Positions 14 through 7,106 of a DNA stretch of 28,774 bases are shown piece by piece (the stretch's first letter is position 1; each line of letters opens with the position of its first letter). Origin of the DNA: Treponema sp. UBA3862 (GTDB lineage Bacteria; Spirochaetota; Spirochaetia; Treponematales; Treponemataceae); NCBI GenBank assembly GCA_002392405.1, contig DGGY01000052.1:1-28774 (forward strand). The letters run 5' to 3'. Both the position numbers and the translations under genes were made by a program. A model generated the notes under the pieces. It did no database searches, was not told the DNA's origin, and was given only the letters and a program-made list of their open reading frames with translations.

Positions 14-56
14 ATACTAACTTCACCTTCTTAAAACCGGAAGAGCGTATTAGTAT
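14..56. repeat. Intergenic hairpin repeat, copy A
   Basis: First of six related intergenic repeats. The conserved core reads TTCACCTTC, an A-rich loop, then GGAAG and GTATTAGT. This copy also has perfect 7-bp outer arms, ATACTAA at 14-20 and TTAGTAT at 50-56, which enclose the core hairpin. It lies downstream of the minus-strand zinc-ribbon nuclease gene. The nested two-stem layout resembles an integron attC site, but that is inference. Confidence 0.75.
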
Positions 57-120
57 ATAGTCGCAGATATGCGAAAAACAGCAATAAAACTGAAAAAAAG
101 TTCATAAAAAATGCTTTTTT

Positions 121-1659
121 TTATTTTTCATCAAAAGGAAGCTCTAATTGTTCAGATTCATTCCACTTTATATTATCAATAACTCCATTCTGATGAATTA
201 CTTGAAGTAATAATGATAAACTTTCAAACACAGGATATGGATACTCTATATGAGCATTTGAAAAATATAATATTTTAATATTATGATCATCACAAAGTTT
301 CTTCTTTGCTTTATCACGTTCTATTGTAATTTTATATTCCTCTTCCCCACCGAATAATTCAGAGGGAAAAAAATGTTGTCCCCCCTGACACTCTATTGCG
401 ATTCCATATTCTGGTAAGAAAAAATCTAAAAACATTTTTCTATTGTAAACTAACCAAGGAAAACCTTTCTCTTGTTCAAAAGATATTTTATTTTTAAGAA
501 GGAATAATCTAATTTCTCCTTCCATATTACTTTGAGGACATGTCGGACAACCGGCACCAAAAAGATGATTATTTGGTGTTTGCCAGAACTCTCCATGTTC
601 GGGACAAATTATACAGACTTTAGAAGCCGTATTTTTATAAACTACCTTTGAATAATCATATTTATTCTCATGAACTAATTTAGCTTTTTCAATAAACTCG
701 TCAGTTGTAAGACGTCTGCCACCAACACATTTTGGACAATTACCACCATTCATATGATATCGTGCAGTTTGCCAGAACTCTCCGTGTTCGGGACAAATTA
801 TACAGACCTTCTCTAAGGAACTTGTAAAATCTACCTTGCTGTAATCATATTTAATTTCGTGATTTTCAATAGAACGCTTAAAAAACGCTTCAGCATCAAT
901 AGGAACCATTCCACTACATTTTGAACATCCGTTTCCATTCCAATGTGACTGAGGCTTTTGCCAAAACTCTCCGTGAACAGGACAAACTATACAAACAGGT
1001 TCTTTATTTCCTTTATATTCAACTTTAGAATAGTTATATTTATCTCCATGTACTACCCTAGCCTTTTCAATAAACTCTTCTGTTGTATGTTTAGGAGTTC
1101 CAAAACATCCAGGACAACTATGACCTCGGAGAAAATTATTTGGTGTTATCCACCATTCGCCGTGTTCAGGACAAATAATGCAAACTTTATCCTTATTACC
1201 TTTATATTCAACTTTCGAGTAATCGTATCTATCACCATATACTTCTTTTGCTTTACGAATAAACTCATCTGTATTTGATTTAGGAGTAGCAAAACAACTG
1301 GGACAACCATTTCCGTGTAAATGATTTTTAGCAATTTGTTGAAACTCGCCATGTATAGGACAGATTATGCAAACTTCTTTATTAGATCCTTCAAACTTTA
1401 CTTTTGAATAATCATATCTTCCTTTATGTATATCGGTAGCTCTTGTAATAAAAACTTCTTTTGTTATCCTCTGCCGACCACTGCATGTAGGACACTTATG
1501 TCCTCGAAGGAAATTATTTGGAGTTATAAAGAAATCTCCATGCTCAGGACATGTAATACAAACTTTTGTTGAGGTATTTACAAAGTGAACTTTTGAATAC
1601 TCGTACTTATCTCCATATTTAAGCTTTGCACGAACAATAAACTCTGCAACAGAAAGCAT
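121..1659 (-). CDS. Six-repeat zinc-ribbon protein with C-terminal PD-(D/E)XK-like nuclease domain
   Basis: A 512-residue protein made of six tandem units of about 62 residues (1-377) and a C-terminal domain (378-512). Each unit has a helix of the type EFIxKA, a DKYDYSKV segment, a CxxCPxHGEF pair and a closing GCPxC pair, so each can bind one zinc. The C-terminal domain has FLDFFLP (Asp412) and IECQGGQH (Glu423, Gln425), then a basic helix near 445-455 and a hydrophobic strand. This fits a PD-(D/E)XK fold of the DUF559/Vsr-like kind. Such zinc-ribbon repeats are known from phage and bacterial nuclease-like proteins and probably bind DNA. Only 12 bp separate it from the upstream RAMA-domain gene, so the two are probably co-transcribed. 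Start: ATG with a weak purine stretch upstream. The DNA target is unknown. Confidence 0.8.
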   Translation of the reverse strand: MLSVAEFIVRAKLKYGDKYEYSKVHFVNTSTKVCITCPEHGDFFITPNNFLRGHKCPTCSGRQRITKEVFITRATDIHKGRYDYSKVKFEGSNKEVCIICPIHGEFQQIAKNHLHGNGCPSCFATPKSNTDEFIRKAKEVYGDRYDYSKVEYKGNKDKVCIICPEHGEWWITPNNFLRGHSCPGCFGTPKHTTEEFIEKARVVHGDKYNYSKVEYKGNKEPVCIVCPVHGEFWQKPQSHWNGNGCSKCSGMVPIDAEAFFKRSIENHEIKYDYSKVDFTSSLEKVCIICPEHGEFWQTARYHMNGGNCPKCVGGRRLTTDEFIEKAKLVHENKYDYSKVVYKNTASKVCIICPEHGEFWQTPNNHLFGAGCPTCPQSNMEGEIRLFLLKNKISFEQEKGFPWLVYNRKMFLDFFLPEYGIAIECQGGQHFFPSELFGGEEEYKITIERDKAKKKLCDDHNIKILYFSNAHIEYPYPVFESLSLLLQVIHQNGVIDNIKWNESEQLELPFDEK

Positions 1660-1671
1660 TATTGGAACCTA

Positions 1672-2589
1672 TTATGCTATACTCTTCTGATACTTTTCCC
1701 ACTTTTCATTAATGAGTTTTCCATCCATAGTTTTCCAAGTTACCCATCCATTACTTGTTGTTCTTGTCGGAGATACTTCCTGGATACAACGCAAAGAAGA
1801 AATACTTGGAGACGATATAACCCCATTTACTTCAATCCCATTTATATGAACAATACCTTCAAAGTGTCTTTTTTTTGTTCCTTTAGGTCCATAGTCCATA
1901 TAAACCTTCTCACCTTCATTTAGGAAACCAGCTTTTACAACTAGTTCCAAAAGATTTTCCGGTTTCTTATCAGATATTTCTTTTATTTCCTTTGCAATTT
2001 TCTCTTCAGTAAATTTAAGTTCTAAATCCGGCATATTGAATAAGACGTTTCCATCTTTATCCATAAACTTTTCTACAAGCTGTATTTCAACTTTTATTCT
2101 AAGATTGCCAGCCCATTCTTCAAGATCATTAGGAATATAATCTATTGGAAGAGAAACTATTGGATCTTTTCTGAGTATCTTTTCAATTTCTCCATGAATA
2201 TTGATTTCTGAAATATTTATTTCGTTTAACAAATCAATAAAGTTAGGAGTTTTCTTTATTTCAGATATACAGTTTTCCGTTATCTTAATTTTAGTATCAT
2301 CATTTTGAATGGCTGTAATCTGCTTATTTATCTGCGGAGCAATATGTTCCCATGTTCCATGGATACCTCGTTCCACTTCCATAATATACCACTGCCCTTC
2401 TTCAAAATTAATAATAATACCATCTGGAATAGTTCCTTTTCCTCCAGAGGTATTTATCATGCTTTTTGGTAATAAAATGGAATAATCTCCAAATAAAAGT
2501 TTGAAGTTATTGATGATAACGTTTTCAACCTCTTCTTCTGTATTGAACTCTATCTTTGTAAAAGTTTTTCCATTTATATCAAAAATCAT
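1672..2589 (-). CDS. PD-(D/E)XK nuclease-like protein with C-terminal RAMA domain
   Basis: A 305-residue protein. The N-terminal half shows Glu20 in an early helix, TIPDGIII (Asp56), then WYIMEVE (Glu71, Glu73) and PQINKQ (Gln86). This is the order of the PD-(D/E)XK core as in NucS/DUF91-like enzymes, with Glu in the usual Lys position. Residues 215-290 look like a RAMA domain: GFLNEGEKVY, a basic turn, VHINGIEVNG, SSPSISSL and a GWVTW signature. RAMA domains accompany adenine methyltransferases and restriction enzymes and are thought to sense modified DNA. The start has a clear AAGGAG 8 nt upstream, lying just beyond repeat B. It heads a two-gene minus-strand unit with the zinc-ribbon nuclease. 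A role as a modification-dependent nuclease in defence is inference; no methyltransferase is visible nearby. Confidence 0.65.
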   Translation of the reverse strand: MIFDINGKTFTKIEFNTEEEVENVIINNFKLLFGDYSILLPKSMINTSGGKGTIPDGIIINFEEGQWYIMEVERGIHGTWEHIAPQINKQITAIQNDDTKIKITENCISEIKKTPNFIDLLNEINISEINIHGEIEKILRKDPIVSLPIDYIPNDLEEWAGNLRIKVEIQLVEKFMDKDGNVLFNMPDLELKFTEEKIAKEIKEISDKKPENLLELVVKAGFLNEGEKVYMDYGPKGTKKRHFEGIVHINGIEVNGVISSPSISSLRCIQEVSPTRTTSNGWVTWKTMDGKLINEKWEKYQKSIA

Positions 2590-2604
2590 GCTAGAACTCC
2601 TTAT

Positions 2605-2642
2605 TGTTTTCTCACATTCTTAAAACCAGAAGGTCGTATTAA
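2605..2642. repeat. Intergenic hairpin repeat, copy B
   Basis: Diverged copy of the array repeat: CTCACATTC, TAAAACC, AGAAGGTCGTATTAA. It lies about 15 bp upstream of the RAMA-domain gene start and about 40 bp beyond the end of the 95-residue gene, so it separates two cassette-like units. Confidence 0.65.
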
Positions 2643-2678
2643 CATAAAACAAGACTTTCTTTTGGACAGCCCTGTTTG

Positions 2679-2966
2679 CTAATACATTTTCATATCTGAT
2701 AATTTACCACTTTTAGTTTTTTCTAGTATAAGTTTGTACCCATTCTTTTTGAAATACTCAAGCATATAATCGTGTTTTTCTTTCACACTTTTTTTACATA
2801 AATCTTCAATGGTCTGCTTACTTGTATTTCCATTAAAAATATAAGTATCACCATTGTTTTGATGATAATAAAAATCTCCTGTAACCCAGTATGCTAAATA
2901 TCCATATTCTTTCTGAAATGTTTGATAAAAATCATTATCTACGGATGATATTAAGTATTCTGTCAT
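2679..2966 (-). CDS. Hypothetical 95-residue protein
   Basis: Unrecognised small soluble protein, rich in Tyr, Lys and Asn, with no signal peptide, membrane segment or cysteine motif; its one cysteine is not part of a pair. An aromatic N-terminal half (YGYLAYWVTGDFYYHQ) is followed by a charged helical C-terminal half. Stop is TAG. An AGGA lies about 9 nt before the ATG. It is the only gene between repeats B and C. High AT content and orphan status fit a mobile cassette. No function can be assigned. Confidence 0.6.
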   Translation of the reverse strand: MTEYLISSVDNDFYQTFQKEYGYLAYWVTGDFYYHQNNGDTYIFNGNTSKQTIEDLCKKSVKEKHDYMLEYFKKNGYKLILEKTKSGKLSDMKMY

Positions 2967-3007
2967 ATGATATCCTAATACACCTTATATGATTTTGGAA
3001 ACCCTTT

Positions 3008-3044
3008 GCTGTTTCACCTTCAAAAACCGGAAGGTCGTATTAGT
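3008..3044. repeat. Intergenic hairpin repeat, copy C
   Basis: Full copy: GCTGTTTC, ACCTTC (3016-3021), an A-rich loop, GAAGGT (3030-3035), CGTATTAGT. The 6-bp stem is perfect. On the minus strand its edge supplies the TAA stop of the 44-aa ORF at 3040-3174. Confidence 0.75.
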
Positions 3045-3174
3045 CACAAATCTGAGAGCTGTCGTTTTCTAATCTCTGAGTATAAGTTCTGATTACTACA
3101 GCGGCTCCAACATCATAGGCAGACCTTTCTGTAATACGAACTATCTGTCCGCTTACGCGCCATTCATTTATCAT
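3040..3174 (-). CDS. Small ORF of 44 residues ending inside repeat C
   Basis: Reading the minus strand from ATG at 3174 gives a 44-residue product beginning MINEWRVSGQIVRITE and ending QICD, with TAA at 3040-3042 inside repeat C. The predicted protein alternates hydrophobic and polar residues (GQIVRI, GAAVVIRTY), as in a small beta-rich protein. Its codons are less AT-rich than the neighbouring genes. Only a weak purine stretch precedes the ATG. It could be a real small cassette protein, the tail of a decayed gene, or chance; it would fill the otherwise gene-free gap between 2966 and 3270. No homolog recognised. Confidence 0.4.
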   Translation of the reverse strand: MINEWRVSGQIVRITERSAYDVGAAVVIRTYTQRLENDSSQICD

Positions 3175-3269
3175 AATTACTTCTTACCTGCAAAGCAGGT
3201 CGAAAAAAATAATTTTTTGTAAAAATAAAGCGTCATTTGAATTGTAAAACAAATTGCCCTTTTTAGAAT

Positions 3270-3848
3270 TTACAATTCATCTTTAATGTTTTCATAATAC
3301 TTATTGAATTTCTCTTTATCTTTTTCAATTTTTTCTTTTTCTATCAAATCTGTTAATTCTTGTGATGTAAAACAAATACAATTTACGCCATAGTTATTAT
3401 TTCTAAAATCTTTTTTAATTGTTAAGGTATTATTATTTCCAGAGGAATAATAACTCGAACCATCAAATTTAGTTCCGGTTATTTTATCAAGTTTTAAATC
3501 ATATTTCCGAATTAGAGCATTTTCGATATGTTCAGCTTCTTCAAAAGAATTAGACATTATTCTTTCAAAGTGGATAAAACTTAAATACATTTTATTTTTA
3601 TAAAAGTAAAAATCTATTGAAGCAACTCTTATGCCGCCATAATAAAAAGTTTCCTGTCTACATTCCATATAGGATTTATAATCGTCTCTAAAAGGAATTG
3701 GATTTCCACTCACAGCCCAGCCTTTCTCTTTCATCATCTTATCAACTTCTTCAAAAGAGCTTCCGAACTTAATTCCCATAACACCAGTTAAATCTTCTGC
3801 ATAGCAGAGAGATACGCAGAGAAAGAGAAGGGCAAATATTTTTTTCAT
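3270..3848 (-). CDS. Secreted hypothetical protein, about 192 residues
   Basis: The preferred start is the ATG at 3848, preceded by AAGGAG 5 nt upstream; a longer reading from TTG at 3863 would place that ribosome site inside the gene. The product begins MKKIFALLFLCVSLCYAE, a clear signal peptide with likely cleavage after CYA, so it is exported to the periplasm or beyond. The mature part contains GVMGIKFGSSFEEVDKMM, a motif seen in many small secreted proteins of gut bacteria, and ends in a Lys/Glu-rich helix. It lies between repeats D and C. No enzymatic motif is visible and the function is unknown. Confidence 0.7.
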   Translation of the reverse strand: MKKIFALLFLCVSLCYAEDLTGVMGIKFGSSFEEVDKMMKEKGWAVSGNPIPFRDDYKSYMECRQETFYYGGIRVASIDFYFYKNKMYLSFIHFERIMSNSFEEAEHIENALIRKYDLKLDKITGTKFDGSSYYSSGNNNTLTIKKDFRNNNYGVNCICFTSQELTDLIEKEKIEKDKEKFNKYYENIKDEL

Positions 3849-3916
3849 AAGAACTCCTTGCAATTATGATAACACACTATTTGTAACTTACAACCCAGTC
3901 TATAGAGCAGCCTAAA

Positions 3917-3953
3917 GCTGTTTCACCTTCTAAAACCGGAAAGTCGTATTAGC
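3917..3953. repeat. Intergenic hairpin repeat, copy D
   Basis: Full copy of the array repeat: GCTGTTTCACCTTC, TAAAACC, GGAAAGTCGTATTAGC. It is flanked on the left by CAGCCTAAAGCTG, a short inverted repeat that extends the secondary structure. It separates the minus-strand secreted protein from the plus-strand lipoprotein gene. Confidence 0.75.
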
Positions 3954-4047
3954 TATTTAACGAGCTCTGGAGAGAATAAGGAGCTTTATAATTTTATCTT
4001 AAAAGCCTTAACTATTTTTTAACGAATATAGACCAGCGTTAATTTTT

Positions 4048-4077
4048 TTGACAGATAAAAAAAACGCATTATATAAT
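4048..4077 (+). promoter_or_regulatory. Consensus sigma-70 promoter for the cassette lipoprotein
   Basis: TTGACA at 4048-4053, an 18-bp spacer, then TATAAT at 4072-4077; both boxes match the bacterial consensus exactly. The ATG of the lipoprotein gene is 25 bp beyond the -10 box, with AAGGAG at 4086-4091. In this AT-rich stretch a chance -10 box is likely, but the perfect -35 box at proper spacing is not. Confidence 0.75.
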
Positions 4078-4102
4078 TTTTTATTAAGGAGTATTAAACT
4101 AT

Positions 4103-4924
4103 ATGAAAAAGTTTTTATTATTGCTTTTAGGCTGTTTTTTATTTTTTTCTTGCTCTGAAGAAATAACAAAAAATGAAACAGAAAAAAAGGAATTAACACT
4201 AGAGGAAGAGTCATCAAAAACAGCTTTTTTTTATAACACTACAGAAAATAAAATAAATTTAATATTTTATTATACAGACGATTTTTTTATAATAGAGGAA
4301 TTAGAACAAGATGAGGGAATATCTACCCATTTTGGAAGGTACAAAACAGCTTATTTTTTTAATCAAGAAAATAAAAAAATAGAAATTAGTTTAACTGAAA
4401 TAGAGACTAATTCTTATATAGATATTTATGAAAATGAAATAAAAATAAATAATAATGAATATGTTTATATTCGAATTTGTCAACCTAGTGTTAAAGCTTG
4501 TCTAAAGTATAACGAGGGTTTAGAAAGATTTTATTATTCTATAAATAATGCTGAATATAAAAAAATTGATATAAAAAATATTTATGAGAATTATACAACA
4601 AGTGATTCAAAAAAATATATAAGAGTCGCTAGAGGATTTTACTCTATAGCTAAGACAGACCTTAACTATGCGGAAAGGAGAAGTTATTCTACTTTTCAAG
4701 AAAAGTTAAAAATATTGAATTGTTTAGATGCTTTAAAACAAAACAACATAACAGAGGAACAGTTAGAATATTTTGAGAATTATTGTTTTAATGAAAAAAA
4801 TATTTTTATTAACGAGGAACCTTTTATTAAATCAGCTAAAATATTTATAAATATTGCTACTAATAAAGATGGTGTAACTTGTTTTGATTTTTTATATCTA
4901 AATGCTGATTCATCATACGATTAA
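4103..4924 (+). CDS. Predicted lipoprotein, 273 residues, function unknown
   Basis: Begins MKKFLLLLLGCFLFFSC, a type II signal peptide with a lipobox (FFSC, Cys17), so the mature protein should be lipid-anchored and surface or periplasm facing. The rest is rich in Asn, Lys, Glu, Tyr and Ile with many beta-prone stretches, and shows no known motif. It is the only plus-strand gene of the repeat array and has its own consensus promoter, so it does not depend on transcription of its neighbours. Very AT-rich codons suggest recent arrival. It lies between repeats D and E, and its stop codon touches the outer arm of repeat E. Confidence 0.75.
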   Translation: MKKFLLLLLGCFLFFSCSEEITKNETEKKELTLEEESSKTAFFYNTTENKINLIFYYTDDFFIIEELEQDEGISTHFGRYKTAYFFNQENKKIEISLTEIETNSYIDIYENEIKINNNEYVYIRICQPSVKACLKYNEGLERFYYSINNAEYKKIDIKNIYENYTTSDSKKYIRVARGFYSIAKTDLNYAERRSYSTFQEKLKILNCLDALKQNNITEEQLEYFENYCFNEKNIFINEEPFIKSAKIFINIATNKDGVTCFDFLYLNADSSYD

Positions 4925-5001
4925 AACAGCCCTTTATAGCGCTTTTATAGCGTAATTGAGTAAAGCTGTTTCACCTTCCAAAACAGGAAAGTCGTACTAG
5001 T
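4924..5001. repeat. Intergenic hairpin repeat, copy E, with extended outer arms
   Basis: The core GCTGTTTCACCTTCC, AAAAC, AGGAAAGTCGTACTAGT spans 4965-5001. To its left a second nested structure is seen: AAACAGC (4924-4930) pairs with GCTGTTT (4965-4971) and encloses CGCT (4940-4943) pairing with AGCG (4949-4952). It follows directly on the stop codon of the lipoprotein gene. Confidence 0.7.
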
Positions 5002-5017
5002 AATTTTTCATTTCTTT

Positions 5018-5155
5018 TTACTTGCAATTTAAGAAGTTCTGCAATAATGTCATATATAAAGAGTCACCCCTGGGTAGTTGATTTATATCGACCCCAGCTT
5101 TGGAAGGTGGCTCTTGTTTTTTTATGTCATCTTCTGAAAAAAAACGAATACACAT
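5018..5155 (-). CDS. Possible small ORF of 45 residues between repeats E and F
   Basis: An open frame from ATG at 5155 to TAA at 5018-5020, beginning MCIRFFSEDDIKKQEPPSK and ending LLQNFLNCK. AAAAGG lies 4 nt before the ATG. The segment between repeats E and F has no other gene, so by analogy with the other segments a small gene is expected here. The same DNA forms a strong hairpin (next entry), so a non-coding role is equally possible. No homolog recognised. Confidence 0.3.
   Translation of the reverse strand: MCIRFFSEDDIKKQEPPSKAGVDINQLPRGDSLYMTLLQNFLNCK
5059..5123 (+). ncRNA. Strong two-part hairpin followed by a T run
   Basis: AAGAGTCACC (5059-5068) pairs with GGTGGCTCTT (5106-5115) with one G-T pair, and inside it CTGGG (5070-5074) pairs with CCCAG (5093-5097). 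Seven T residues follow at 5117-5123, as in a Rho-independent terminator or the 3' end of a small RNA. No good upstream promoter is seen. It overlaps the possible 45-aa ORF on the other strand. Confidence 0.35.
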
Positions 5156-5175
5156 AAAACCTTTTTCTTCACTTT

Positions 5176-5198
5176 GATGTATCACCTTCCAGAACCGT
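5176..5198. repeat. Partial array repeat, copy F, at the inner boundary
   Basis: GATGTATCACCTTCCAGAACCG matches the left half of the repeat; the right half has diverged. It sits just past the end of the PIN toxin gene and marks the edge between the cassette-like stretch and the flanking chromosome. Confidence 0.5.
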
Positions 5199-5210
5199 GA
5201 TAATTATAGT

Positions 5211-5648
5211 TCATGAAAATTCCGCCGTAAACCAGTTCTCAAGACGCAGCATTGATTTGTCCTTAATATATTTAAAATCTTCGGTATTGCGCGTTACAAG
5301 AACCATTCCGTTTGCGACGGCAGTTGAGGCAATCTGAGAGTCATATGCTGGAAGCGTCCTTCCGTCAAGTTCAGCCCGTGCCTGAAGTTCACCGCAGATA
5401 TCGGCAGAAAACTTGTCGTACGGGATTACTTCCAGACAGTTTACATAAATATTCATGCATTCCTGTAAATAATGTTTTCTTCTTCCTTCAGGAAGACGCT
5501 CCACCCCCCTCTTAAGTTCCTGCCAGGTAACGGCAGAAACGGCACAAAGATTTTTTCTTGCAAGATAAAAGGCAGTAACCTGAGTATCAGGCCGCTCTTT
5601 TGAAAATTCTGAGACAATATTCGTATCAAGTAAATATATCTTTTTCAT
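5211..5648 (-). CDS. vapC: VapC-like PIN-domain toxin ribonuclease
   Basis: A 145-residue PIN-domain protein beginning MKKIYLLDTNIVSEFSK. The four acidic metal-binding positions of the family are present: Asp8 (LLDTN), Glu44 (WQELKRG), Asp103 (AYDSQIA) and Asp124 (TRNTEDF). PIN toxins of this type are Mg-dependent RNases that cleave tRNA or rRNA when free of antitoxin. The start at 5648 is preferred over the longer reading from 5675 because GAAGGA lies 6 nt before it and the PIN fold normally begins here. It follows the Phd-type antitoxin gene by 17 bp. GC content is nearer the chromosome than the AT-rich cassettes. Confidence 0.88.
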   Translation of the reverse strand: MKKIYLLDTNIVSEFSKERPDTQVTAFYLARKNLCAVSAVTWQELKRGVERLPEGRRKHYLQECMNIYVNCLEVIPYDKFSADICGELQARAELDGRTLPAYDSQIASTAVANGMVLVTRNTEDFKYIKDKSMLRLENWFTAEFS

Positions 5649-5665
5649 ATTCTTTCCTTCTCTGG

Positions 5666-5938
5666 TTAAGCCCACGGATCTTTTGAATAATCAGGACACT
5701 CTCTTGATGGTATTACAAAGTCTTCATTACTAATTACATCTGCATAGTTTCGTTTTAATTCCGCCAGTTCTGTAAGAAGCGAAGGCTTTTTTTCTTCTTC
5801 GCTGTCGTACTCAGCCCAGCTGATAATAACGGCAACAGGCTTATCATAACGGGTCAGCTGAACGACTTCCCCTTCCTCCGCCATTTTTACGAGAGATGAA
5901 AAATTGTTTCTTGCGTCATAAATTGAAGTTTTACACAT
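5666..5938 (-). CDS. Phd/YefM-family antitoxin
   Basis: A 90-residue protein. The N-terminal half has the Phd/YefM pattern: IYDARNNFSSLVKMAEEGEVVQLTRYDKPVAVIIS, with the DARxxxxxLV helix and the phrase KPVAVIIS. The acidic C-terminal part (to PDYSKDPWA) would wrap and inhibit the toxin. AAGGAGG lies 8 nt before the ATG, a strong site suited to antitoxin excess. It is the first gene of the pair and probably represses its own promoter, where a near-palindrome is found at 5998-6013. VapC-type toxins paired with Phd-type antitoxins are common. Confidence 0.85.
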   Translation of the reverse strand: MCKTSIYDARNNFSSLVKMAEEGEVVQLTRYDKPVAVIISWAEYDSEEEKKPSLLTELAELKRNYADVISNEDFVIPSRECPDYSKDPWA

Positions 5939-6013: not shown

Positions 6014-6074
6014 AGCCAGCATTTTAAATCTAGGGGCGTTCGGTGACAACGGCATAAATAAACAGTTATGCGTT

Positions 6075-6301
6075 ACAAAACTCGTGTCTATTTTTCTGAA
6101 TCATATTCAGCATATGCGTATGCGTTTACGAATCGCGAACGCGATTCTGCGAGTTTTGCGTTACAAAACTCGTGTCTATTTTTCTGAGTCATACTCAGCG
6201 CAAGCGTACGCGTTTACGAATCGCGGACGCGATTCTGCGAGTTTTGCAGGACAAAACTCGTGTCTATTTTTCTGAGTCATACTCAGCGCAAGCGTATGCA
6301 T
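6075..6301. repeat. 88-bp tandem repeat, 2.6 copies, rich in hairpins
   Basis: Copies start at 6075, 6163 and 6251 with an 88-bp period. The third, partial copy covers the stop and last codons of folE2. Each full unit contains CTGARTCATAYTCAG, GAATCGC paired with GCGATTC, and at unit junctions CGAGTTTTG (6150-6158) paired with CAAAACTCG (6164-6172). Copies 1 and 2 differ by paired changes that keep the first stem (CTGAAT/ATTCAG versus CTGAGT/ACTCAG). On the minus strand each unit still encodes the folE2 tail AEYDSEK and its TAG stop. This fills the gap between folE2 and the antitoxin gene; no other gene is seen there. Confidence 0.85.
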
Positions 6302-7106
6302 TGTGATAGTGGATACTTTCTTCCGTCTCTGCTTCTACGTTGAACCATTTGAAGCCTGCTTGTTTCAGGCCCAGGTACACTTCACGGACTACGTCTTCTA
6401 CGAATCTCGGGTTATCGTAAGCGTGTTCGGTTACGTATTTTTCATCCTGGCGCTTCAGGATCGAATAAAGGGAAGTTGAAGCGCAGTTTTCTATCATTTC
6501 AATTACATCTTCTATCCAGAAAAATTTGGAGTATAGAACTTTTACCTTTACAAAGCCTCTCTGATTGTGTGCTCCATATTCTGAAATTGCCTTTGAGCAT
6601 GGGCAGAGGGTTGCAACCGGCACCTTTATCGTGATGAAGAATTTTGCACCGTTTGGGGATTTTAAGGGGCTACGCCCCTTAGGTGAGGGGGTGGCGCAAG
6701 ACTGCGAAGCAGGCTGAAGACAGGGGGAGACTTCCCCCTCATAAGAACACTGATATTCCATGAGGCCTGCACTGCCTGAAACCGGGGCTTTTTTTTCCAT
6801 AAAATACGGAAAAGTTATGCGGCCAAATGCACGCTCTGCGTCGAGTTTTGTGCGGATTTCTTCGAGCATCTCAAGAAAATTATTCATTGAAATGTCCGTG
6901 TGATATTTGTGGAAGACCTCGATAAAGCGGCTCATGTGTGTTCCCTTGTAATTGTGGGGAAGATTCACAAATAGATTTACCGAGGCTGTTGTATTCTGGA
7001 CTTTTTTATTTTTATCTAAAACCTGAACCGGATAGCGGACGTTTTTTACACCGACTTTCTGAAGCGGTACCTCGCGCGTATCCGGCGTGGACTGTATGTC
7101 TATCAT
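6264..7106 (-). CDS. folE2: GTP cyclohydrolase FolE2 (type IB)
   Basis: A 280-residue enzyme converting GTP to dihydroneopterin triphosphate, the entry to folate, pterin and queuosine synthesis. Family signs: the N-terminal TREVPLQKVGVKNVRYPV, SVNLFVNLPHNYKGTHMSRF, and the metal/catalytic KVPVATLCPCSKAISEYGAHNQRG (Cys168), then EDVVREVY near the end. About 30 residues at 124-153 are foreign to the family and encoded by a palindromic insertion that keeps the frame. The last codons are part of the 88-bp repeat. It starts 19 bp after folD with no clear ribosome site, so it is probably translated from a folD-folE2 transcript. FolE2 works with metals other than zinc in related enzymes, an adaptation to zinc limitation. 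Confidence 0.93.
   Translation of the reverse strand: MIDIQSTPDTREVPLQKVGVKNVRYPVQVLDKNKKVQNTTASVNLFVNLPHNYKGTHMSRFIEVFHKYHTDISMNNFLEMLEEIRTKLDAERAFGRITFPYFMEKKAPVSGSAGLMEYQCSYEGEVSPCLQPASQSCATPSPKGRSPLKSPNGAKFFITIKVPVATLCPCSKAISEYGAHNQRGFVKVKVLYSKFFWIEDVIEMIENCASTSLYSILKRQDEKYVTEHAYDNPRFVEDVVREVYLGLKQAGFKWFNVEAETEESIHYHNAYACAEYDSEK
6653..6742. repeat. Palindromic element inserted in frame in folE2
   Basis: About 90 bp inside folE2, containing two hairpins: AAGGGGC (6664-6670) with GCCCCTT (6674-6680), and AGGGGGA (6722-6728) with TCCCCCT (6733-6739). It encodes a Pro/Ser-rich stretch (PKGRSPLKSP among others) between the strand EYQCSYEGE and AKFFITIKVPV, without a stop or frameshift. The exact ends are estimated from where the family pattern breaks. 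Confidence 0.6.

Follow-up and report, generated by a model that had tools for sequence, protein, structure and literature searches.

The stretch of DNA analysed here, 28,774 nucleotides long and referred to as the window, is the complete contig C32 of a Treponema metagenome-assembled genome (MAG; G000, 65% complete), and one end of it carries an array in which a short repeat separates gene-sized inserts. The repeat is about 36 bp long (36–37 bp) and occurs in five full copies and one partial copy, all on the plus strand: A (19..54), B (2608..2643, full but divergent), C (3010..3045), D (3919..3954), E (4967..5002) and the partial copy F (5174..5197), of which the TGTATCACCTTCC half remains. 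Before any model was made, an IUPAC pattern allowing up to three mismatches matched C (with none), D and E and nothing else in the genome, where the reversed pattern gave no match; A and B were missed by it, and both are clear by eye. R1, a sequence-only model built without base pairs from nine copies, matched A at E=1.7e-10 (18–60), B at 2.2e-10 (2603–2649), C at 8.4e-14 (3006–3051), D at 3e-13 (3915–3959) and E at 1.9e-12 (4963–5007), five of the nine source copies being from the window, so that A to E match by construction; F matched over model positions 2–25 at E=0.048. The copies sit between the main open reading frames (ORFs), with F ending near the stop of a PIN ORF. A preliminary description of this DNA had claimed a single repeat, placed between genes and bounding segments of one or two genes; the repeat is borne out by the five copies and partial F, which share one orientation, and in the genome-wide search that it proposed the pattern matches were confined to the window contig.

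The insert between A and B (55..2607, 2553 bp) holds two complete ORFs on the minus strand, one of 512 aa with repeated treble-clef zinc-finger units (DUF723/DUF4379; 121..1659) and one of 305 aa with a RAMA-domain match under the curated cut-off (1672..2589). The next three inserts hold one complete ORF each: 95 aa with no convincing family in B–C (2644..3009, 366 bp; ORF 2679..2966, minus strand), 197 aa with no Pfam family in C–D (3046..3918, 873 bp; ORF 3270..3863, minus strand), and 273 aa with a lipoprotein-like start by eye and no Pfam family in D–E (3955..4966, 1012 bp; ORF 4103..4924, plus strand). The segment between E and F (5003..5177, 175 bp) is hairpin-rich, has no ORF of 60 aa and has an 85% homologue in genome G140, so the one or two genes per segment that had been described hold for four segments and not for this one. 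All five are AT-rich, with a GC content of 0.24–0.32 against 0.43 from position 6501 on. The window gave no Rfam match at the gathering threshold, and the seven ORFs searched against defence-system families gave none. When the array was searched in 200 genomes of the genus, partial homologues appeared in six others, with no repeat in the fetched flanks at up to 11 mismatches. The 512-aa ORF contains six internal 189-bp (63-aa) repeats. The hairpin-rich DNA at 5015–5134 (GAGTCACC...GGTGGCTC) has its G140 homologue at about 1501–1623 of locus L214, by eye beside a degenerate GTTGTA...TACAAC repeat. A PIN toxin and Phd antitoxin pair (5211–5938) directly adjoins partial copy F, and three tandem repeats of about 88 nt (6064–6327) lie next to folE2.

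The repeat belongs to a family that is widespread in the genus. R1 found it in 51 of the 200 genomes, its own included, at E≤0.01 per genome, a level at which about two genomes are expected by chance with 30 candidates scored in each. At most five copies were listed per genome, often in arrays, and no two listed matches in the 200 genomes lay about 66 bp apart. The fetched loci yielded 74 R1 matches in 36 sources, with a consensus in the direction of the window of about TTGTATCACCTTCC-GAAAAC-GGAAGGTCGTTTAGY; in some subfamilies the repeat is an almost perfect palindrome with GGTGATACAAC or GGTGATACACC at its end. An inner palindrome, CACCTTCC..GGAAGGTG, characterizes the family, since 87.8% of the cells are paired in an alignment of 48 of the 67 distinct complete copies (F and the half copy L019:4994 excluded) as opposed to 26–49% when slid. 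The inner structure that had been noted in the window is a family-wide palindrome, while single-strand folding of the window copies themselves is weak (z from −1.3 to +0.35). The 7-bp outer inverted arms described for A and E did not hold up as a family feature: arms of 7–8 bp are clear in copy A alone, and we rejected them as part of the site.

When the ORFs near the repeats were clustered, Cas1 and Cas2 emerged. Type II-like cas1 or cas2 pieces were detected at 12 of 36 array loci (tblastn, E≤1e-3), a count from which L180 and L200 are omitted as they had been added for holding cas1. Their strand relative to the repeat is the same in all 12 cases, and 11 read toward it; by this strand rule, the copy F side of the window corresponds to the cas2 and leader side in relatives. 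At L053, L055, L062 and L070 the cas2 match stops 14 bp from the repeat, and at L058 the coding sequence for the first 23 residues of cas1 extends into the repeat. L055, in genome G161, carries an intact Cas1 (TIGR03639, 238 bits, cut-off 120) and an intact Cas2 (TIGR01573, 40 bits, cut-off 24.5) just before its first repeat. No cas9 stands beside cas1 or cas2 at these array loci. L071 and L072 appear to be a single locus sampled from two genomes, and L072 was left out of the tallies of insert ORFs, frames and cargo. In Treponema zioleckii kT3, a cas1 remnant (L200:392–697) is accompanied by one repeat with eight mismatches and, by eye, a HipA-like gene. At L257:9189–9272 a repeat copy directly precedes a cas1 without its N-terminal ~88 residues, which might have been lost in an event at the repeat.

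Stand-alone cas1-cas2 pairs occur in five further genomes of the genus, with a second repeat, GTATAACGACCCGCAATTTTTGGAGGGTCGTCAACC, located after cas2; the arrays of this repeat have inserts of 186–1765 bp. Stand-alone loci with their own ~36-bp repeats are L155, L156, L157, L158, L159/L234, L178, L256 and L257. L178, an Eggerthellales contig from a scan of one genome per species, has four exact 36-bp repeats spaced 540–1337 bp, and L256 likewise has exact copies. A search of the family to which G200, a MAG named Lachnospiraceae, belongs (348 genomes) added two cases: G504 has four exact repeat copies, and in G434 a 31-bp core is present ten times. Seven distinct stand-alone Cas1s, from Treponema, two genomes of the Lachnospiraceae-type family and the Eggerthellales contig, form one clade (100/100) in a comparison with 12 Cas1s from loci with a Cas9-like or Cas9-sized ORF. 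A 67-row Cas1 tree without L256 and L257 agrees with this clade; seven of 74 rows shorter than 250 aa were dropped from it, near-identical rows were kept, and membership of its 'treponema_cas9' group was taken without a row-by-row check for cas9. E147, H202 and D214 are invariant in four aligned stand-alone Cas1s and align with the E, H and D of 5xvn, which we take to be catalytic; the stand-alone Cas1 is a putative integrase.

The Cas9 model TIGR01865 was run on 14 chosen genomes that have arrays or stand-alone Cas1 and matched in none, and it recognized all five positive controls; most of these genomes are incomplete MAGs. In G183, G150 and G044, three of the controls, the repeat family of the window is also present, and cas9 lies on another contig. 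Of 30 other type II Cas1 loci fetched in the genus, 26 show different repeats with periods of 65–68 bp, mostly 66, and we therefore regard the 30 as ordinary CRISPR (clustered regularly interspaced short palindromic repeats) loci. A search of 5.8 billion proteins returned 1020 relatives of the stand-alone Cas1 at E≤1e-30; a few of the 120 listed are named Treponema, Tyzzerella or Lachnospiraceae. On viral contigs there were 247 pattern matches, none of them related to the stand-alone Cas1, and 15 plasmid and 4 phage records held relatives below 60% identity alone, the annotated ones being type II Cas1. A Lactobacillaceae locus (L204:138–1216) has three exact 36-bp repeats with about 500 bp spacing and a Cas1–Cas2 of another clade; its 7-kb contig has no big ORF, and a cas9 could lie past the contig end. 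It is possible that L204 represents a second origin of such arrays; its two inserts are counted among those measured below. Similar ParA/Fic plasmid-like DNA with cas1(-cas2) occurs at L155, L157, L177, L199 and L201, in MAGs labelled Treponema and Lachnospiraceae, which may reflect a shared plasmid or a binning error.

The ends of the arrays next to cas2 vary in a manner that respects the repeats. G080, G193 and G060 have a common cas1-cas2 and leader. Through the first repeat, the sequences of G080 and G060 do not differ, and that of G193 matches G080 at 98.4% identity across 1780 bp; at the leader G193 then has exactly one extra 222-bp unit (36-bp repeat + 186 bp), after which G193 and G080 are 100% identical over 1316 bp, to the end of the G080 contig. 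G060 carries a third, different first insert. In four groups of loci (L155/L156/L157, L158/L234, L055/L053 and L062/L070), the final 60 bp leading up to the first repeat are identical, and the DNA beyond the repeat differs. L234 has an intact cas2-proximal repeat, and its other six copies carry 2–5 mismatches. Repeat-bounded units also differ at one locus in G156, G059, G128 and G093, whose right flank is about 90–94% identical among the three genomes holding it. Gain at the leader end would be the simplest reading of these unit differences. A mobile palindromic element, such as a miniature inverted-repeat transposable element or a repetitive extragenic palindrome, inserted repeatedly between genes would also give a palindromic, intergenic repeat in dozens of genomes. 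Such an origin is scarcely credible given the small number of copies listed per genome and their frequent clustering, the constant 14-bp gap to the cas2 match at four loci, and the exact difference of one repeat plus one insert at the leader.

In total, 67 inserts could be measured: 38 of the window family, 13 of the second family and 16 of L178, L204, L256 and L257. Their lengths lie between 125 and 3438 bp with a median of 671, no insert is shorter than 100 bp, and the regular ~20–50-bp spacers of CRISPR arrays are not seen among them. One explanation would be that these are ordinary type II arrays that lost cas9 and whose spacers were stretched by transposition, recombination or misassembly. 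The repeat length, the cas1-cas2 family and the order cas1-cas2-array are indeed those of type II-C, and many of the cas genes at the array loci are decayed. On the other hand, stretching would have to leave no insert below 125 bp among the 67 and produce the same pattern with several different repeats in three phyla, while the stand-alone Cas1s form one clade, near-identical loci differ at the leader end, G018 is a single contig, and normal ~30-bp spacers were not seen with these repeats in the loci read. We consider this explanation improbable.

The origin of some inserts can be traced to related DNA. The 186-bp insert of the extra unit is matched over 169–191 bp at 80–85% on other contigs of G090, G080, G060 and G083; its frame is FlgK (flagellar)-like by eye, and the insert resembles an internal piece of a gene. 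The next insert, of 270 bp, has an 80% match in G060 and a 76% match in G193. In G504, a 612-bp insert carries a cut ORF, PyrH-like by eye, and shares 67% similarity over 526 bp with a different contig of that genome; an insert of L178 includes a fragment, truncated at the repeat, whose counterpart elsewhere on the contig is 91% identical. The captured DNA thus apparently includes arbitrary gene pieces with related bacteria as a source. No protospacer motif was readable from two insert sources. Whole genes are nevertheless enriched: in the window family, 58% of 38 inserts have a complete frame longer than any end-cut frame, compared with 14% of length-matched random fragments (0 of 200 draws reach 58%), and in the second family the figures are 54% of 13 inserts and 15% (1 of 200 draws). 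A Pfam scan of 20 of the 48 listed cargo ORFs found a chemoreceptor, an M1 peptidase, PIN, an ADP-ribosylglycohydrolase, a WYL regulator and ASCH, with seven of the 20 having no match. These contents bear on a further alternative, in which the arrays are real products of Cas1–Cas2 that serve as long-spacer memory or arise as a size-blind by-product, with no gene-capture function. Fitting this alternative, the plasmid array has at its leader end two inserts that are internal gene pieces and hold no whole gene. The excess of whole genes in the window family speaks against it, and so does the lack of Cas9 in the 14 chosen genomes, other effectors not having been searched. We hold it to be a possible, less probable account.

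The preliminary description had favoured an integron cassette array with attC sites. A layout of unrelated, diverse genes between repeats of one orientation is integron-like, and integrons are common in the genus, with 58 of 200 genomes over the cut-off of the integrase (IntI) model. The arrays linked to IntI in the genus carry a different attC of about 64 bp (TAACAAAGGTTCGTAGCC...GTACAACCAGTTGTTA), and the ends of the ~36-bp repeat hold no RYYYAAC/GTTRRRY boxes (R''/R' boxes; no attC covariance model was run). PMC3607928 gives 63–132 bp and AAC/GTT boxes for the attC of Treponema integrons, boxes that the repeat of the window does not share. Our search of G000, 65% complete, with the IntI model gave nothing over the cut-off, and because 17 of 51 repeat-bearing genomes exceed it compared with 58 of 200 overall (hand count), we see no association between IntI and the repeat. 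Moreover, cas1/cas2 pieces adjoin the repeat at the 12 array loci, and the cargo is of mixed orientation, with 28 ORFs pointing away from and 17 toward the presumed leader (a hand count of 45 of the 48 listed ORFs, the three of L178 being omitted). The missing IntI in G000, the lack of IntI enrichment and the different genus attC led us to reject the identity of the repeat with an integron attC, and an integron with an unusually short attC, or its integrase-less form (a cluster of attC sites lacking integron integrases, CALIN), appears very unlikely. The poor fit to the GTTRRRY box and the absence of a visible integrase had already been pointed out in the preliminary description, which also allowed for a new type of cassette repeat in a cassette-like array; that suggestion proved right, with cas1-cas2 beside the repeat in relatives, and the variation at exact repeat-to-repeat units that it proposed to look for was seen in the arrays of relatives.

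Taken together, we interpret the array of the window as a probable cas-less stretch of a CRISPR-like array with gene-sized units, whose relatives include stand-alone, Cas9-less Cas1–Cas2 arrays; we put the probability of this reading at about 0.77. Comparison of loci supports the repeat family, its linkage to cas1-cas2, the cas9-less loci, the fixed leader with a variable first insert, the one exact extra unit, the gene-piece inserts and the enrichment of whole genes; that this Cas1–Cas2 catalyses the insertions, that units are gained, and that the host benefits are things we infer from these patterns. In the mechanism that we propose, Cas1–Cas2 would take a long double-stranded fragment of about 125–3400 bp, for example from the chromosome of a related bacterium, and would join its ends to both ends of the leader-side repeat, at the leader-repeat junction. 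Gap-filling repair would then duplicate the ~36-bp repeat, and the array would grow at the leader by one repeat plus insert. The ~30-bp ruler seems not to apply with the divergent Cas1–Cas2 that has no Cas9 beside it. Part of the inserts would be cut gene pieces, and those with useful whole genes would tend to be kept, so that chromosomal arrays would come to resemble integron cassette arrays. Copy F may mark a deletion that removed the cas genes of the window.

Several observations weigh against this interpretation. The window begins at the contig end of an incomplete MAG and has no cas gene, and at 24 of the 36 array loci, the window included, no cas trace was found at E≤1e-3; within the repeat subfamily of the window, one intact cas1-cas2 (G161) was found. 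The partial copy F occupies the side presumed to be that of the leader, where one would expect the newest repeat. The arrangement also has exceptions: at L069 the cas2 piece is on the far side of the repeats and reads off the contig end, and at L178 the array is upstream of cas1. L156, L158 and L070 show a single repeat, their contigs ending before a second, and the difference between G193 and G080 could instead be a loss in G080 by recombination between repeats. Cas9 acting in trans is possible in G183, G150 and G044. The insert sources are relatives of 67–91% identity and not exact donors, and the random-fragment control had a GC content of 0.398 as opposed to 0.346 for the inserts, which inflated the end-open frames of the control. 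For the palindrome, covariation does not stand clearly above that of shuffled data, as three pairs changed on both sides and 66 of 500 shuffles reach that; a structured covariance model was rejected, R1 having been built without pairs. Most of the genomes used are MAGs.

A CRISPR adaptation module without an effector could be a gene-capture platform, a third route beside integrons and transposons, present in at least three phyla of gut bacteria and partly on plasmid-like DNA, in which gene-length pieces copied from the chromosomes of neighbours are ordered by capture; the odds that the module has this function are, in our judgement, about even. Cas1–Cas2 is generally seen as a ruler by which immunity spacers are cut to ~30 bp. 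If the proposal is true, a stand-alone clade that stores pieces of up to kilobases in length would change ideas on the control of spacer length, bacterial evolution would have an added route of gene acquisition, the enzyme would be a candidate for inserting long DNA at a defined position, and the arrays would form an ordered archive of horizontal transfer among gut bacteria. Searches of open PMC full texts, a scope that leaves subscription papers and bioRxiv outside, found no such system. The parts, Cas1–Cas2 and CRISPR-type repeats, are known; their combination would be distinct both from CRISPR immunity, as the loci have neither an effector nor short spacers, and from integrons, as IntI and attC are missing.

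Among known systems, the type II-C adaptation module is similar in its Cas1 (TIGR03639), its Cas2 (TIGR01573), its ~36-bp repeats that often end in CAAC, the order cas1-cas2-leader-array at most loci and the variable units at the leader end. The window itself has direct repeats in one orientation within the ~24–47-bp range of CRISPR, and its relatives add the adjoining cas1-cas2 (12 of 36 loci, one intact pair) and, by comparison, the exact variation of repeat plus insert. Unlike type II-C, the arrays have no Cas9 at the locus, their inserts measure 125–3438 bp rather than ~30 bp and often hold whole genes, and their Cas1 clade is distinct. Casposons are Cas1-solo transposons, in which a Cas1-family integrase handles DNA far longer than a spacer; this likeness is shared here, in contrast to the presence of Cas2 and of repeat arrays instead of a single element. 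Xer/p-dif modules are small gene modules bounded by short palindromic sites, as in the present arrays, in which, by contrast, all copies have one orientation and cas1-cas2 is nearby. The chromosomal integrons and CALINs of Treponema denticola and T. succinifaciens (PMC3607928) resemble these arrays in the unrelated genes between short repeats, in the many cargo genes of no known function and in the strain-specific content. The arrays described here differ from them in having no linked IntI and no attC boxes, a palindromic ~36-bp repeat, cargo of mixed orientation, and Cas1–Cas2 adjoining some of the arrays.

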